Shown: positions 1 to 6,465 of the stretch, piece after piece
How positions within the stretch are numbered: position 1 is the first letter of the stretch
Layout: every line of letters begins with the position of its first letter
Assembly (NCBI GenBank): GCA_017938785.1
Contig: JAGBAU010000307.1
Location: forward strand, 1-6,465
Direction of reading: 5' to 3'
From: Clostridia bacterium
GTDB taxonomy: Bacteria > Bacillota_A > Clostridia > Christensenellales > Aristaeellaceae
DNA: 6,465 nucleotides
Position numbers and translations under genes: made by a program
Notes under the pieces: model-generated
Told to the model about the DNA's origin: nothing
The model's input: the letters and a program-made list of their open reading frames with translations, nothing else
Databases searched by the model: none

Positions 1-853
1 AGTAGCCGATGGATGCACGCGGATTGGCAGGATGCACCTTGGAGTTGAACTTCTCCATGGAATTTCCATCCTTATCCAGCAGCATGGGACCGAAGTTCCA
101 GGCCTGGTAGGCGCCGCGTTCCATTTCCGTCTGGGTATCAAACTCGTTCGGAGAGAAGCATTCCATGGAACCATCCCAATAGATCACACCCACATCGCGG
201 GTGATTCTTTTCTCATCGCGGTAAAGGATGCCGTTGCGGATCACGATGCCATTATCGCGGGTGCCGCAGAAATCACCGTTGATGGTCACGATGGCGCCCT
301 TGCGCTCCGCAATCTTCCAGGGCCATTCACCATAGCCGCGGCCGAATTTATCCTTTGCAAATGCCGCCTGCAGGCAGCTGATATCCTTCACATAGATATC
401 CGCAATGTATACGTCCGCACCCTTTTCGCGGGTCTTTGTCACAGTGACGTTTACATTGCCGCTGCGATAGCTGCCGCCCTCACGGATAACCTCTCCGTCC
501 GTGAACTTATCCGCATACTTTGTACCGAAGTAACCCACCGGATCGGGCGTGGGTTCCGGCGTTACCTCCACCGTTGCCTCAGGCGTTGCAGCCTGAACCA
601 CCGGTTTCACGGTTGCCGTGGGTTCAGGGGTTACGGTCACCACAGGCGTAGGCGTCACAGGAACCTGCGTAGCCGCCTGCATCTGTACGCTGCTCACGCG
701 CCGGGAAACGGTGCCCACCGCATCCTCCTGACGGGGAATTACATGGTGGAACAGCGCAAACACAACCAGCGCCAGACCCAGCGCCAGCACATCCGCAAGC
801 ACCAGTTACCAAATAGGCCAAGGACCCTTTATCTGCTTTTTGTGTCTCGCCAT
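1..853 (-). pseudogene. Membrane-anchored phosphodiester glycosidase (NAGPA/DUF2233-like), interrupted by in-frame TAA and cut by the window edge
   Basis: Reading from ATG 853 the frame is open to the window edge (284 codons, 3' end missing) except for one TAA at 808-806, codon 16. Before it is a basic tail (MARHKKQIKG...); after it come a hydrophobic anchor (about residues 17-38, ending FALFHH), a Thr/Pro-rich linker (about 63-105, repeated VTPTP/VTPEPT units) and a globular domain from about 108. That domain has AIVTINGDFCGTRDNG near 187-201 and PRASIGY at the edge, the pattern of phosphodiester glycosidase (PF09992) proteins, which in bacteria are often linked to exopolysaccharide or wall-glycan work. 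The ATG overlaps the upstream glycosyltransferase stop (TAATG) and has GAGGG 9 nt upstream, so this start is convincing. Downstream of the stop only GTG codons (802, 790) are near, without a clear Shine-Dalgarno. The stop could be a true mutation, a sequencing error or bypassed by reinitiation; the domain itself shows no decay. Confidence 0.75.
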
Positions 854-1908
854 TACTTCTTACCCTCAAAGGTATTGCCGCGATAGACAAACTTACCCTG
901 GACAACGAAGCTCACTGCAAAGAGCACAACTTCCACCAGGATCTTGCTGATCACCATGTTCCAGTTCAGGCCGATGGTCAGCAGGTGCATCAGAGCGTAG
1001 TTGGCAGCCAGGATGAACAGCGCCAGAACGGCGTACTTCGCCAGGGCCTTGCCCAGCTTTTCATCCCCCTTGAACACCACGCTACGGTTCACGCAGAAGT
1101 TCACGGCAGAGCTCACGATACGCGCGCCCACGACGCTGATAGCCAGGGACGTGGCTTCCGGCATGGCCTTGGTCAGCGCGCTGAGCAGCAACACCATGGC
1201 AAAATCGATCACGAAAGCCAGCAGGGAAGAGCAGCAGAACTTCAGGATGCACATGTAGATCTTCAGCGAATCCTTGAAGGGGTTGAAGTGAGAGGAAGAA
1301 TTGTCGTTCAGGTAAACCGTCGCGATGGTTTCCTCATGGATATGAATGCCTGCCTGGGCTGCATCCAGCAGCATGTTGATCTCATATTCGTAGCGGTCGC
1401 CGGGCACCTTCAGGAAGCGCTGCATGGCGGCGCGGCCGAATACGCGCAGGCCGGTCTGGGTGTCATAGACCTTCTGGCCGCTGGCGATGGCAAACACCTG
1501 GCGGGTCACGCCGTTGCCGAAGCGACTGCGGAAGGGAACATCGCCGTCGAACTTACGGCTGCCCAGCACCAGATCGTTGGGGCGCTTCTTCGCGGCTTCG
1601 TTGACCATCACGATGTCCTCATAGCGGTGCTGGCCATCCGCATCGGCGGTGAGGGCCAGTTCGCACTGGGGCATCTTCTCCAGAACGTAGGTGATGGCGG
1701 TTTTGAGGGCAGCACCCTTGCCGCGGTTCACCTCATGGCGCAGCAGTACGGCAAAATCCGGGACGGCTGCAAAGATGGGCTCGAAAGCCTCGCCGCTGCC
1801 GTCATCCACAACTACGGGACAGAAATCTTCATTTCCACGAAAGCGCTCCAGCAGCTCAAGCATCTCCTTATCGGGCTTGTACGCCGGAATGATCAGCGCT
1901 GTTTTCAT
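853..1908 (-). CDS. Bifunctional GT2 glycosyltransferase / GtrA-family membrane protein
   Basis: This 351-residue protein has two parts. Residues 1-210 are a family 2 glycosyltransferase: the start MKTALIIPAY, VDDGS at 34-38, TADADGQH at 87-94 (the DxD metal and nucleotide-sugar site), GSRKFDGD near 116 and QTGLRVF at 151-157, as in polyprenyl-phosphate sugar transferases. Residues 220-345 form a GtrA-like domain with about four membrane helices and VNRSVVFK at 273-280. By family knowledge it would load a sugar onto a lipid carrier on the cytoplasmic side and help flip it for modifying a surface polymer; the sugar cannot be told. ATG 1908 is chosen over the in-frame ATG 1965 because it has AGGAG 8 nt upstream and because the -10 box lies at 1956-1951, inside the longer version. 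Its stop overlaps the start of the phosphodiester glycosidase gene, so the two are probably translationally coupled. Confidence 0.93.
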   Translation of the reverse strand: MKTALIIPAYKPDKEMLELLERFRGNEDFCPVVVDDGSGEAFEPIFAAVPDFAVLLRHEVNRGKGAALKTAITYVLEKMPQCELALTADADGQHRYEDIVMVNEAAKKRPNDLVLGSRKFDGDVPFRSRFGNGVTRQVFAIASGQKVYDTQTGLRVFGRAAMQRFLKVPGDRYEYEINMLLDAAQAGIHIHEETIATVYLNDNSSSHFNPFKDSLKIYMCILKFCCSSLLAFVIDFAMVLLLSALTKAMPEATSLAISVVGARIVSSAVNFCVNRSVVFKGDEKLGKALAKYAVLALFILAANYALMHLLTIGLNWNMVISKILVEVVLFAVSFVVQGKFVYRGNTFEGKK

Positions 1909-1924
1909 CTGTATCTCTCCTCTT

Positions 1925-1936
1925 CCCGCAAGCGGG
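1925..1936 (-). promoter_or_regulatory. 5'-leader hairpin with CUUG tetraloop
   Basis: The minus-strand sequence CCCG-CTTG-CGGG forms a 4-bp GC stem with a CUUG loop closed by G-C, a known extra-stable tetraloop. It would begin about 8 nt from the predicted transcript start and end just before the AGGAG ribosome binding site (1921-1917). A role in protecting the mRNA 5' end or tuning initiation is inference. Confidence 0.4.
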
Positions 1937-1950
1937 CATTTGTTGCTTCT

Positions 1951-1980
1951 ATTATAAGACTTCATTGTTAAAGGTGTTCA
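1951..1980 (-). promoter_or_regulatory. Sigma-A promoter for the glycosyltransferase operon
   Basis: On the minus strand a perfect TATAAT lies at 1956-1951, preceded 18 bp upstream by TGAACA (1980-1975, 4 of 6 matches to TTGACA). Transcription would start near 1944, giving a leader of about 36 nt. The element sits in the short gap after the stop of the upstream 485-residue protein gene, where no terminator is visible, so some read-through from that gene is also possible. Confidence 0.7.
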
Positions 1981-1989
1981 GGCATGCAC

Positions 1990-3447
1990 TTATTTGCCGA
2001 ACAGCTTCTTAAAAAATCCCTTCTTCTCCGGCTTCTCGGGTTCCGGAAGCTCCGACTGTTTCGCCTCCGGTTCACGCTGAACCTTCGGAGCATCGAAATC
2101 ATCGGGATTGGGCAGGCTGCCCATATCCTCCGCAGGCTGTCTGGGCTGGGGCGCAGGCTTTTCTGCTTCAGGCTGCTGCACACGCACCACCACCGGCGGC
2201 TTGCTCCGCAATTCCTTCACCTTTTCAAACTCCGCCTTGGGCAGACGGTAGTTCAGCACGCCTATATCCACCATCAGACCGCCGAAAGCCTGGGCGCGCA
2301 GTGTGAGTTCGCCGAACTTCATGGCAACCGGTACAGGATTTCCATCCACCTTCTGGGCAAAGGAATTTGCGCGCATGCGATCCGTAAAGACGGCAAGCAT
2401 CCGCTCTCCCCCATCCTTGGCATTCAGCACCACACACTTCTCTCGCGCACCGCCGGCGCACAGGGCATAGAGGGTGGCATTTCCGATTTCGCGCCAGGCG
2501 AAATTGCGGAAGGTGAGCATGCCCTCCAGGCAGCTGCGCAGGTGCTTCTCCTCCGCCTTCATCTCCCTGAGCTTGTTCATGCGCATACCTGCTTCAATTT
2601 CGCGGATCATGAAGCTGCGCAGGGTGATGTTTTCGCTCATGAAATCCGGCATGAAATCCTTCAGGCTGAGCTCCGCCGCTGCGAAGCCATTGTCCACGCG
2701 CAGGGCGTTCAGGCCATCCATGCCGCAGTTGCGCAGGTAGTTCACGATCTCCGTTCCCGGCAGTTCGCGTATGGTCCAAATCTCCACGCCGCCCATGGCA
2801 GCAGTGATCTGAGGCTTGATGCGCTCGGCGCGTTCGCGGGTGGTGAAGATTTCAATTCTTCCGTCAAAGCCGACGGCGGGCCAGCGGCCGCCCACCAGCA
2901 GTTCATCCACCACATACACCTTTTCCAGGCTCAAAATGGCCTTGCCCAGTTCTGCGCGGGCGGCCTGCCAATCCTGCTTCACACCCTCGGGCACGTTCTT
3001 ATCCGCGCACAGGTTCTGCAGCCTGCGGCTCTCTCGAATCACATCATCGATGGGGCCGGTCATGCTCTTGCGAATCTTTTCCTTCACAAGCGCGGCAAAT
3101 GCACCGCCATCGATGGAATCCCCGGTCTTGAGCTGCACATTTTTCTGCACAACTGCTCCCTTCAGATCGCAGATGCGCCAGCCCAGCAGGCGATCCGCCG
3201 GGATCTGCTTACAAAGCTGATCCACAAGCTGATCCAGCGCCCTGGGATCGGAATCTTTCCATGCATATTCTTCGGGCGTAATGCCGAAGAGCATCATGCA
3301 AATTTCGCCGGGCGCCAGCTTTCCATCCTTCAGCGCAGGGCGGGGATCCGCCGCCTCCACGGCATAGCCCAGCATGGCCTGAATTTCGCCCGCAGTATAT
3401 CGCTTTCCCTTCGTGGGAAGATAGGTTCTTTTATAGCGAATTTCCAT
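1990..3447 (-). CDS. Protein of unknown function with two putative SseB-like modules
   Basis: This 485-residue, soluble-looking protein has no signal peptide or membrane segment. Two regions resemble each other and the SseB N-terminal domain (PF07179): about 175-265 (GRIEIFTTRERAERI ... VEIWTIREL) and about 320-412 (ERMLAVFTDRMRANSF ... KFGEL ... IGVLNYRLP). Each has a strand, an FTxRxRA-type turn, a helix, then more strands. The N-terminal 170 residues are unrecognised. Residues 415-475 are rich in Pro, Glu and Gln, and the end is basic and aromatic (KKGFFKKLFGK), perhaps a membrane or partner contact. ATG 3447 is chosen because GAGGA lies 5 nt upstream; the alternative in-frame TTG at 3477 overlaps the -10 box and would not be in the transcript. 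SseB-like domains occur in secretion-associated and general protein-interaction settings, so no function is assigned. It is transcribed alone from a very strong promoter and may read through into the glycosyltransferase operon. Confidence 0.88.
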   Translation of the reverse strand: MEIRYKRTYLPTKGKRYTAGEIQAMLGYAVEAADPRPALKDGKLAPGEICMMLFGITPEEYAWKDSDPRALDQLVDQLCKQIPADRLLGWRICDLKGAVVQKNVQLKTGDSIDGGAFAALVKEKIRKSMTGPIDDVIRESRRLQNLCADKNVPEGVKQDWQAARAELGKAILSLEKVYVVDELLVGGRWPAVGFDGRIEIFTTRERAERIKPQITAAMGGVEIWTIRELPGTEIVNYLRNCGMDGLNALRVDNGFAAAELSLKDFMPDFMSENITLRSFMIREIEAGMRMNKLREMKAEEKHLRSCLEGMLTFRNFAWREIGNATLYALCAGGAREKCVVLNAKDGGERMLAVFTDRMRANSFAQKVDGNPVPVAMKFGELTLRAQAFGGLMVDIGVLNYRLPKAEFEKVKELRSKPPVVVRVQQPEAEKPAPQPRQPAEDMGSLPNPDDFDAPKVQREPEAKQSELPEPEKPEKKGFFKKLFGK

Positions 3448-3457
3448 TCTTATCCTC

Positions 3458-3535
3458 GTTTCAAATTGATGTTTCAATTATAGAAAGCAATTTCAATCCT
3501 GTCAATTACCAATTTCTGAATTGCCGTTTCAAATT
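3458..3535. repeat. Repeated TTTCAA motifs around the divergent promoter
   Basis: Read on the plus strand, the 10-mer GTTTCAAATT occurs exactly at 3458-3467 and 3526-3535, with near copies GTTTCAATTA at 3471-3480 and ATTTCAATCC at 3490-3499. Together they cover the start site, the -10 box, the spacer and the region upstream of the -35 box of the minus-strand promoter. They could be operator sites, but the stretch is AT-rich, so chance is not excluded. Confidence 0.35.
3477..3505 (-). promoter_or_regulatory. Perfect consensus sigma-A promoter
   Basis: On the minus strand TTGACA (3505-3500) is followed by exactly 17 bp and then TATAAT (3482-3477), matching the vegetative consensus at all 12 positions. 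The start point would be near 3470, giving a leader of about 23 nt before ATG 3447. This fixes the start of the downstream gene and predicts strong expression unless repressed. Confidence 0.9.
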
Positions 3536-3546
3536 CCGCCAAACGG
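3524..3546. promoter_or_regulatory. Inverted repeat, possible operator upstream of the DUF1614-SpoIIP operon
   Basis: CCGTTT (3524-3529) and AAACGG (3541-3546) form a perfect 6-bp inverted repeat with 11 bp between. It ends 1 bp before a weak plus-strand -10 candidate CATAAT (3548-3553), which has no good -35 box (TTGCCG at 3521 would need a 21-bp spacer). A regulator bound here could control the plus-strand operon. There is no further support in the sequence. Confidence 0.3.
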
Positions 3547-3583
3547 TCATAATACTTGCAAACACACATTTGGAGGGAAAATC

Positions 3584-4246
3584 ATGACCATCGGCATGAT
3601 ACTTTTGATCATTGTAGCAATCCTGATCCTGCTGGGCGTGGGACAACGCATCCTGGACCGCCTACGCCTGAATGATAAGCTGGCGCTTCTGTTTATCGCT
3701 CTGATCATCGGGCTGGGCTTTGTGCCGGACATCCGCATAACGCCCGTCTTCGCCTTCAACCTGGGCGGCGCCGTGATTCCACTGGCACTGTGCATCTACC
3801 TGTTCATCAAGGCCGACACAGCCTGGGAACGCTGGCGCTGCATCCTCGCCTCCCTGGCCACGGGCGCAGCCATCTTTGCCATCGGCTGGTTTGCACCGGA
3901 TGAACCGGAAACCATCACCGTGGATCCCATCATCCTTTATGGCCTGGCTGCGGGCCTGATCGCCTATATCTTCGGCCGTTCCCGCCGCTGCGCGTTCATC
4001 GCGGGCGTGATCGGCATGATGCTCTCCAACACCGCTAACGCCGTCTACGTATGGTCGAAGGGCGTGGAACAGGATTTCATCCTGGGCGGCGCAGGCGCTT
4101 TTGACGGTATCATCGTAGCGGGTCTCGTGGGCGTACTGCTGGCGGAGCTGCTGGGCGAAATCATCGAGCGCATGAAGCGCGGCACTCAGCGTCCCACCCG
4201 CATCTTCCGCAACGGAGAATTCGTAAAGGAGGAGGAAGTTCGATGA
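3584..4246 (+). CDS. DUF1614-family multi-pass membrane protein
   Basis: This 220-residue protein is very hydrophobic, with about six or seven membrane segments: 3-20, 33-48, 56-75, 86-104, 114-130, 136-153 and 165-190. Two stretches are typical of DUF1614 (PF07758): FNLGGAVIPLALCIYLF (58-74) and LGGAGAFDGIIVAGLVGVLLAE (167-188). The tail (from about 195) is charged and probably cytoplasmic. The start ATG 3584 has GGAGGG 6 nt upstream; an upstream in-frame ATG at 3521 lacks such a site. The stop overlaps the next gene by four bases (ATGA), so it is probably cotranslated with the SpoIIP-like wall hydrolase. The biochemical role of the family is unknown; the neighbour suggests work at the envelope, possibly transport or support of a membrane-bound amidase. 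This link is inference. Confidence 0.85.
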   Translation: MTIGMILLIIVAILILLGVGQRILDRLRLNDKLALLFIALIIGLGFVPDIRITPVFAFNLGGAVIPLALCIYLFIKADTAWERWRCILASLATGAAIFAIGWFAPDEPETITVDPIILYGLAAGLIAYIFGRSRRCAFIAGVIGMMLSNTANAVYVWSKGVEQDFILGGAGAFDGIIVAGLVGVLLAELLGEIIERMKRGTQRPTRIFRNGEFVKEEEVR

Positions 4247-5298
4247 AGAAAATCGCCATCCTCCTGTTGGGCCTGCTGGCACTGGTTTCCGGTGCACGGG
4301 CCGAAAACGATGGAGACTGCATCTATACCCTGCTCAATGCCGACGGTGAGGTGCTCACACGCCGGGCCGGCCGCATGTATGAAGGGGATGAATATATCTC
4401 CGGCAACAACCGTCACTACCGCATCGCTTTCGTGGACGACAACCTGTGCACCGCCACAGCGGAAGACCTGGGGCCATCCATTCCCGACGCCGAAACCTTT
4501 GCCGTGTTCATGAGCGCACAGGCTGCCAAAAAGAACGACGACAAGCTCATCTGCATGTACTCCACCCATTCGGATGAATCCTATGTGCCCAGCGATGGCG
4601 CATCCAGCCTATGGGAGAATGCGGGTATCTACGATGTGGGCGACGCGCTGAAGGAAAACCTGGAGAAGAAGGGCATCACCGTAGAATACTCTGAAAAATC
4701 CTTCCTCCCCCATGATGCGGACGCCTACAACCGCAGCCGCTCCACGGTTGAGGAATATGTGAAGCAGATGCCCGACGCCATCATCGACATCCACCGGGAC
4801 GGTGTGGACGCGGAGGAATACGAAACCGAAGTCGACGGCGAGGATACCAGCATGGTGCGCCTGTTCGTGGGCCGTTCCAACCAGAATTCCGCCGAAAACA
4901 AGGCCTTCGCCCAGCGATTGAAGTCCGCAGCGGACGAGGCCTATCCGGGACTGATCAAGGATATCTATATCGGCAAGGGCAACTACAACCAGGAGCTCTA
5001 TCCCCAGGCCATCCTGCTGGAATTCGGCACCCATGAAATTGAAAAGGAAAAGGCCATCTCCGCCACGGAGTATATGGCGGATGTGATCGACGATGTGCTC
5101 TTCGGCGGCACAGCCTCCGCCGCCACCGGAGAGAAGAACAGCAATGCCGCCAAAGGTATCGGCTGGGCCATCGGCATCGCCATCGTAGGCGCAGCCATCT
5201 ATGCCATGTTCTCCGCAGGCAGCATCGGCGGCGCATGGAGCAAGATGAAGAGCGGCGCAGGTGAAATGACGGCGGGCTTGTTTGGAAAGAAGAAATAA
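4243..5298 (+). CDS. SpoIIP-family cell-wall hydrolase with C-terminal membrane anchor
   Basis: The 351-residue protein starts with a signal peptide (MKKIAILLLGLLALVSGARA, likely cut after residue 20). Residues 102-286 match the SpoIIP domain (PF07454): MYSTHSDESYVP (105-116), IDIHRDGV (181-188) and NYNQELYPQAILLEFGTHE (247-265). His109, His184 and Glu260 sit where the family has its metal-binding or catalytic residues. A Gly/Ala/Ser linker is followed by a membrane helix (305-325) and a short basic tail ending in GKKK, so the hydrolase would face outward, tethered at its C-terminus. In Bacillus, SpoIIP acts as amidase and endopeptidase on peptidoglycan during engulfment. This gene lacks the usual gpr neighbour and sits with a DUF1614 gene, so it may be a paralogue with a vegetative role; I therefore give no gene symbol. 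A strong ribosome binding site (AAAGGAGGAGGA, 4225-4236) lies within the end of the previous gene. Confidence 0.88.
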   Translation: MKKIAILLLGLLALVSGARAENDGDCIYTLLNADGEVLTRRAGRMYEGDEYISGNNRHYRIAFVDDNLCTATAEDLGPSIPDAETFAVFMSAQAAKKNDDKLICMYSTHSDESYVPSDGASSLWENAGIYDVGDALKENLEKKGITVEYSEKSFLPHDADAYNRSRSTVEEYVKQMPDAIIDIHRDGVDAEEYETEVDGEDTSMVRLFVGRSNQNSAENKAFAQRLKSAADEAYPGLIKDIYIGKGNYNQELYPQAILLEFGTHEIEKEKAISATEYMADVIDDVLFGGTASAATGEKNSNAAKGIGWAIGIAIVGAAIYAMFSAGSIGGAWSKMKSGAGEMTAGLFGKKK

Positions 5299-5323
5299 AA
5301 GAGGACGAGAACCGTCCTCTTTT
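5297..5323 (+). terminator. Rho-independent terminator of the DUF1614-SpoIIP operon
   Basis: AAAAGAGGAC (5297-5306) pairs perfectly with GTCCTCTTTT (5314-5323) around a 7-nt loop. The hairpin begins inside the stop codon of the hydrolase gene, and its T-run is short (four T). It separates this operon from the promoter at 5330. Confidence 0.85.
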
Positions 5324-5329
5324 CGCAGA

Positions 5330-5358
5330 TTGACAAGCATGTATCCCGGATTTATAAT
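5330..5358 (+). promoter_or_regulatory. Perfect consensus sigma-A promoter
   Basis: TTGACA (5330-5335), a 17-bp spacer and TATAAT (5353-5358) match the vegetative consensus exactly. The predicted start is near 5365, about 23 nt before ATG 5388. The -35 box begins only 7 bp after the preceding terminator, so the next gene is a compact independent unit. Confidence 0.9.
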
Positions 5359-5387
5359 GGATTCCAGAATTACCCTTAGGAGGATTC

Positions 5388-5906
5388 ATGGATATTCATT
5401 GGGAAATGTGGGCAGCGCGGGCATCTTTCTACCTGTTCAACCTGTTGTTTGTATCGATATGCCGCTGGAACCTGTGTGAACGCGCTCACGATATCCGAAA
5501 TATGATTCGCTATGGTCGGGGCAAATATGCACCGTTGGATACGGGCAGACAGCCGAAGTTCATCGTATGGCTGCTGTACACCGATGTACGCACCGTCCGC
5601 AGGCAGGATTTTGCCCTGCGCTTGAACATGCGGGTATGCATCCTTGCCGCACTTTATATGGCAAGCGAACTGCTGCTGGTATGGCTGCCAATGAGATTGG
5701 GGTTAAGCATCGTTCTGTCCCTTTGTACTGTATTTTTCGGAATATGTACCTTCATTTCCTACTGCATCAGTCACAAGCGCGATTACGGCTGTGCATTCAT
5801 ACTGTACAAAAAGAAACCCGGAAACAAGAGCCAGTCCACCTTCTTTGATCTGGTGATTCTATGCATACAATTATGCATCGCCGGATGTTATTTGAATATG
5901 TATTGA
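5388..5906 (+). CDS. Unrecognised four-helix membrane protein
   Basis: The 172-residue protein has about four membrane segments (10-27, 80-100, 105-127 and 152-170). Between the first and second lies a polar, basic stretch (about 28-79: Arg-rich, with YGRGKYAPLDTGRQPKF and DVRTVRRQDF). After the third is a short basic loop with HKRDYG and KKKPGNK. By the positive-inside rule both loops should be cytoplasmic. It is rich in cysteine for a membrane protein (eight Cys, several in the last two helices). No family is recognised. ATG 5388 has AGGAGG 4 nt upstream. It is a single-gene unit between a perfect promoter and a strong hairpin terminator; it does not look like part of the neighbouring operons. 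The stop is TGA at 5904-5906. Confidence 0.8.
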   Translation: MDIHWEMWAARASFYLFNLLFVSICRWNLCERAHDIRNMIRYGRGKYAPLDTGRQPKFIVWLLYTDVRTVRRQDFALRLNMRVCILAALYMASELLLVWLPMRLGLSIVLSLCTVFFGICTFISYCISHKRDYGCAFILYKKKPGNKSQSTFFDLVILCIQLCIAGCYLNMY

Positions 5907-5936
5907 AAAAGCAGAAGCACATGCTTCTGCTTTTTC
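5905..5936. terminator. Bidirectional terminator between convergent genes
   Basis: GAAAAAGCAGAAGC (5905-5918) pairs perfectly with GCTTCTGCTTTTTC (5923-5936), loop ACAT, with a five-T run on either strand. It begins within the stop codon of the membrane protein gene and lies 10 bp from the stop of the convergent 73-residue gene, so it can end transcription from both sides. Confidence 0.9.
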
Positions 5937-5946
5937 ATATGTGGAT

Positions 5947-6168
5947 TCAGTCCTCGGTGAATTCATACTTGAACCACAGGCCGTTCTTGACGCCGGAGAT
6001 GGTAATCACGCCGTTTTCTTCGGTCTTTTCCAGAGCCAGATTGGGCTCCTGTTCCTGCACATAGGCCATGGGGTCTACAGTTTCAACCATGCGCACGTCG
6101 CTGCTGGTGGGAGCGCGACCGCCGCAGGTGGGCTGCTTGCGCTCAATGATCAGTTCATATCTTGCCAT
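5947..6168 (-). CDS. Small protein of unknown function (73 residues)
   Basis: The protein begins MARYELIIERKQPTCGG and ends NGVITISGVKNGLWFKYEFTED. It is acidic overall and has no membrane segment or signal peptide. The alternating hydrophobic pattern at both ends (YELIIE, GVITISGV, LWFKYEF) suggests a small beta-rich fold with a loop between. There is one cysteine, in PTCGG. No family is recognised. ATG 6168 has GGAGAG 4 nt upstream (CAGGAGAGACGT before the start). It lies 60 bp downstream of a TIGR04076-family gene on the same strand, with no obvious terminator or good promoter between, so the two are probably cotranscribed. The end is defined by the bidirectional hairpin at 5905-5936. Its full-length reading frame, good ribosome binding site and fitting terminator support a real gene. 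Confidence 0.72.
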   Translation of the reverse strand: MARYELIIERKQPTCGGRAPTSSDVRMVETVDPMAYVQEQEPNLALEKTEENGVITISGVKNGLWFKYEFTED

Positions 6169-6228
6169 ACGTCTCTCCTGTCTATCTGTTTTTGTTTTTA
6201 GATAAACCGGTTCAGGCCGTCTGAAACA
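6169..6228 (-). other. Intergenic gap in the TIGR04076 unit
   Basis: The minus strand has TTCAG-ACGGC-CTGAA (6225-6211), a 5-bp stem without a following T-run, so it is a poor terminator. An A-rich stretch AAAAACAAAAA (6200-6190) follows, flanked by TATCT (6205-6201) and AGATA (6188-6184). The ribosome binding site of the 73-residue gene comes next. No convincing promoter is seen. Confidence 0.4.
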
Positions 6229-6465
6229 TCAATCCGCATCCTCGTCCAAGGTTTCAATCAGGAAGGAAACCGGACGGAAGCCGTCGTTGCAGGAGATCAT
6301 GGCGGATTTGGGATTCTTCATCCAGCCATCGTAGAAATTCTCGCCGCCGTGGGAAAGGGTCATCACGAAGGCGGACATGCTGTCCCATGCGCTCTGGCAC
6401 ATGCCCTCGGGCCGTTCCCAGCCGTTGGCAATGAACACCTGCCCCAGCTGCATATCGCAGGCATG
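6229..6465 (-). CDS. TIGR04076-family protein, N-terminus beyond the window
   Basis: The frame is open to the right edge, reading HACDMQLGQVFIANGWERPEGMCQSAWDSM..., so the ATG at 6453 is internal and the true start lies outside. Visible features typical of TIGR04076 are a Cys then GQVF near the start, the PEGMCQSAWDSM segment, FVMTLSHGG, a CNDGFRPVSF segment and a short acidic end (ETLDEDAD). Members are small proteins of about 90-110 residues with conserved cysteines, common in anaerobes; their function is not established, and a metal or redox role for the three cysteines is only a guess. Seventy-eight residues are seen. It is followed 60 bp later by a 73-residue gene on the same strand. Confidence 0.8.
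   Translation of the reverse strand, partial: HACDMQLGQVFIANGWERPEGMCQSAWDSMSAFVMTLSHGGENFYDGWMKNPKSAMISCNDGFRPVSFLIETLDEDAD

Follow-up and report, generated by a model that had tools for sequence, protein, structure and literature searches.

An early in-frame TAA in a membrane-anchored NAGPA-family phosphodiester glycosidase gene of an uncultured Clostridia bacterium: probably an ordinary nonsense allele

The closest described enzymes to the gene analysed here are those of the NAGPA/DUF2233 family, with which it shares the PF09992 domain. Its closest relative, a protein of 380 amino acids (P0001, a cluster of 12 member sequences), carries PF09992 when taken at full length, and 70-93 residues of its C-terminal part match by sequence two NAGPA chains (6pky and 6pku) and a DUF2233 protein (3ohg). 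Unlike these, our gene encodes a bacterial form with an N-terminal membrane anchor and a linker rich in Pro, Thr and Glu, and it has a stop at codon 16. The excerpt of one paper (PMC11488536) names NAGPA only as a fused domain. The arrangement of an early stop followed at a short distance by an in-frame start codon also resembles, as far as the excerpts of the two papers go, the re-initiation after premature stops studied in phoA of E. coli (PMC7538156) and the bacterial reinitiation that has been reviewed (PMC5972666). The present locus differs from these cases in that the start codon behind the stop is a GTG with a weak Shine-Dalgarno site, and in that the shortened form would lose the basic tail of the anchor. 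Our literature searches, which were not aimed at this very gene, returned no title on such a stop.

We analysed a stretch of 6,465 nucleotides (hereafter the window; contig JAGBAU010000307.1, positions 1 to 6,465). The 5' part of the phosphodiester glycosidase (NAGPA/DUF2233) gene lies on its minus strand at 2..853, where it spans 284 codons including the stop and is cut by the window edge. Read from ATG 853, the frame gives MARHKKQIKGPWPIW, then the TAA of codon 16 at 808-806 (806..808, minus strand), then LVLADVLALGLALVVFALFHHVIPRQ onward: the sequence and its translation agree with the position and description given to this stop in an earlier note made from the letters only. The frame then runs, again as that note had it, for 268 codons without a further stop, down to base 2, which is the window edge. 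Just after the TAA, residues 17-35 (749..805, minus strand) form a hydrophobic membrane anchor, whose best 19-residue hydropathy is 2.75 (computed on P0001, which is identical to the window here). The N-terminal part of the NAGPA domain follows at 5..298 (minus strand): residues 169-266 of the protein read from the GTG at 802 correspond to positions 2-96 of the 169 positions of PF09992, and this visible part scores 24.6 bits against a cut-off of 25, the 3' part of the gene being outside the window. Calling the gene "otherwise intact" is accurate for the part within the window; the last 86 of the 380 residues, as counted on P0001, are past the left edge, and the NLDGG segment is within these 86 C-terminal residues of P0001, which have no counterpart in the window. 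In the visible 268 codons, there is no further decay of the frame, which means that the stop is recent or that the gene is not decaying.

The start codon (ATG, 851..853, minus strand) overlaps the upstream gene's TAA stop codon, and the N-terminus that it opens matches P0001 from residue 1. The TAATG overlap and the GAGGG ahead of ATG 853 (867-863; 863..867 on the minus strand), to which the initiation site had been ascribed, are both present in the sequence; the GAGGG resembles a Shine-Dalgarno site, and the stretch upstream of ATG 853 forms a duplex of -6.1 kcal/mol with the anti-Shine-Dalgarno tail. P0001 is 95% identical to the gene over 100% of the query. Before the stop, 15 of 15 residues are identical, although the independence of the P0001 record from the window is uncertain; after the stop, the 268 visible residues show 4 substitutions and one 10-residue indel, which falls in the Pro/Thr/Glu-rich linker. 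Because P0001 is near-identical on both sides of the stop, we concluded that the N-terminus and the frame are those of a working gene. The closest subgroup of homologues has an N-terminus of the same kind. The idea that the stop lies upstream of the true start is ruled out by the 15-residue identity with P0001. As for the linker, it is of variable length: a 10-residue Pro/Thr/Glu unit of P0001 is missing at 562-563 of the window.

The upstream gene (853..1908, minus strand), which overlaps the glycosidase gene by TAATG, encodes a GT2-GtrA glycosyltransferase (PF00535 and PF04138). Among 57 distinct related loci, of which 56 include more than 400 nt of upstream sequence, 13 have a same-strand GT2-GtrA match no more than 400 nt upstream. 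At one locus (L027:4678-6792) a single open frame of 705 residues holds GT2-GtrA glycosyltransferase, anchor and phosphodiester glycosidase together. This natural fusion suggests that the glycosyltransferase and the phosphodiester glycosidase work together, and we infer a cell-envelope role for the glycosidase. Elsewhere in the window, 4243-5298 encodes a SpoIIP-domain protein (PF07454) whose N-terminus is signal-like and which has a further hydrophobic stretch close to the C-terminus; its gene and a DUF1614 gene share 4 bases. The segment 5388-5906 encodes a membrane-like protein of 172 residues for which no Pfam or NCBIfam match was obtained at E 0.001. A mobile origin was considered and rejected, megablast giving no match in plasmids or phages; in viral contigs, no relative of P0001 or of P0010, a more distant homologue, was confirmed.

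We then turned to what the relatives have at codon 16. Of 456 homologues found, 120 were listed, and 112 of these 120 reach the stop column; every one of the 112 has a residue there (Leu 27, Met 20, Val 17, Ile 16, Lys 14, Arg 7, others 11). The stop thus interrupts a frame which is kept open in relatives, as expected of a pseudogene or a nonsense allele. It had been proposed that the TAA arose from a TTA codon for Leu. Such an ancestry is not favoured: among the 22 listed homologues which are at least 60% identical, 15 reach the column, with Lys in 13, Leu in one (P0014) and Arg in one (P0019), and Leu is the commonest residue only across all 112. None of the 59 fetched related loci (57 distinct) has a stop at the same place; two of them (L042 and L059) show one stop each in their alignments, near the C-terminal end. 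Eighteen further places with one in-frame stop were all fetched, and all 18 have this stop at the C-terminal end; 12 of these 18 stretches reach the anchor, while 6 begin after it and hence say nothing on codon 16. No genome of the same species was found in the genome contigs, which gave 29 loci at most 51% identical, nor among the 308 genomes from one family; 153 of these have a match at 1e-40 or better, the anchor-bearing form being at most 55% identical among the places listed. The 396 genomes drawn from the order gave one match at 1e-110 or better, and it was already known.

Another record bears directly on the stop. P0017, a protein of 182 amino acids with two member sequences, comes from an ENA contig of 16,595 bases; it shows no difference from the window over residues 19-185, and the start assigned to it is the GTG equivalent to GTG 802. 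Because a gene caller would prefer ATG 853 with its better ribosome site, this choice of start implies that the contig also carries the stop or some other lesion shortly before the GTG. The same stop therefore probably recurs in another assembly, as judged from a protein record which may stem from the same sample. P0017 leaves the window after residue 185 (window 299-301) and continues with 14 non-matching residues; possible causes of this divergence are that the contig ends there in the assembly, that it is chimeric, or that it has been rearranged.

Our preferred reading, which we hold with good though not full confidence, is that one strain of an uncultured, probably Clostridia-type bacterium has in this TAA an ordinary and recent nonsense allele, null or strongly reduced, of its gene for a NAGPA-family phosphodiester glycosidase with a membrane anchor. 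Ribosomes starting at ATG 853 would release a peptide of 15 residues, and a minority of them might restart at GTG 802 to give a protein shorter by 17 residues, with the anchor deprived of its basic cytoplasmic tail. The allele would be null or strongly reduced because most of its translation would end in the 15-residue peptide and at most a minority in a tail-less restart product. Among the explanations initially offered, a recent nonsense mutation and a base-calling error both fit the undecayed frame and the sense codons of the relatives, whereas Leu ancestry is not favoured, and phase variation and readthrough are unsupported. The second of the fitting ones, an error of sequencing or consensus, would mean that a single base of the contig is miscalled and that the codon in the strain is a sense one. 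An undecayed frame and a relative as close as P0001 are to be expected if only one base is wrong; against this, P0017, on another contig and with identical sequence, starts after the stop and so points to the same stop or a nearby lesion, and the gene is without any homopolymer of 6 or more. We consider such an error rather improbable, and less likely than the nonsense allele. For phase variation at the stop site, we found no repeat tract and no invertible repeat at the lesion: a search for homopolymers of at least 6 in the glycosidase gene gave none, and the single inverted repeat between 500 and 1100 (592-628) is in the linker, about 180 bases from the stop. That the TAA is read as an amino acid, by readthrough, through a suppressor tRNA or under a changed code, would account for a frame which remains open past it; yet TAA is the natural stop of 3 of the 7 other genes of the window (GT2-GtrA, an SseB-like gene and SpoIIP), none of these 7 has an internal stop, and no relative compared here uses a stop at the column of codon 16. 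We give recoding next to no credence.

The remaining alternative is a functional enzyme shortened at its N-terminus, made when ribosomes terminate at the TAA and then reinitiate efficiently at GTG 802 (codon 18; 800..802, minus strand), which is also the assigned start of P0017. Reinitiation there had been put forward in the earlier note, and it is possible inasmuch as an in-frame start stands three bases past the stop; its weak point is the Shine-Dalgarno pairing, with a duplex of -2.8 kcal/mol as against -6.1 kcal/mol at ATG 853, so that GTG 802 does not have a good ribosome site. A restart adjacent to a stop may need no Shine-Dalgarno site. The protein read from GTG 802 is 17 residues shorter and keeps the hydrophobic stretch, and, as had been predicted, it lacks the positively charged tail: no Lys or Arg precedes the anchor and one or two come just after it, compared to five before the anchor in P0001 and four ahead of the stop in the window's own tail. 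By the positive-inside rule, the side on which the basic residues stand orients a membrane anchor. Since none stands ahead of this one, insertion of the restart product would be poor or inverted. As called, two homologues (P0009 and P0010, 64% identical) begin with a Met that aligns exactly with GTG 802, which speaks for a shortened form, as does the re-initiation after premature stops in E. coli phoA, to the extent covered by the excerpt of that study (PMC7538156); late starts are however not rare, 10 of the 120 listed homologues beginning at or after column 13, which makes P0009 and P0010 weak evidence. The undecayed frame also fits a product that might still be made through restart, and this counts against a null allele. 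On balance, low-level restart at GTG 802 is plausible as far as the sequence goes, full function of its product is not to be expected, and an efficiently reinitiated, functional short enzyme appears unlikely. We retain the nonsense allele as our reading of the TAA.

A wider possibility concerns the N-terminal tail in the family. At a locus about 45% identical (L050:400-720), the basic tail and the anchor are in different frames on the two sides of a run of nine G (G9), a frame change that could stem from faulty assembly, from a lesion or from a slippage tract. Together with the starts of P0009 and P0010, this locus hints at a possible repeated loss of the N-terminal tail. One could go further and suppose that the basic tail is repeatedly lost across lineages, by a stop in the window and in P0017, by the start in P0009 and P0010 and by the G9 frame change in L050, and that populations switch through the codon 18 restart between an anchored form and one differently oriented or released; we regard this as very improbable.

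Nonsense alleles in environmental strains are ordinary, and the stop looks like the reflection of a known phenomenon, with no new mechanism. As it stands, it is of little consequence. For annotation, it means that a gene caller can set the start at GTG 802 and so mask the lesion, as P0017 seemingly illustrates. Should N-terminal loss in several lineages prove real and be maintained by selection, it would point to a switch in the placement of a cell-envelope enzyme.
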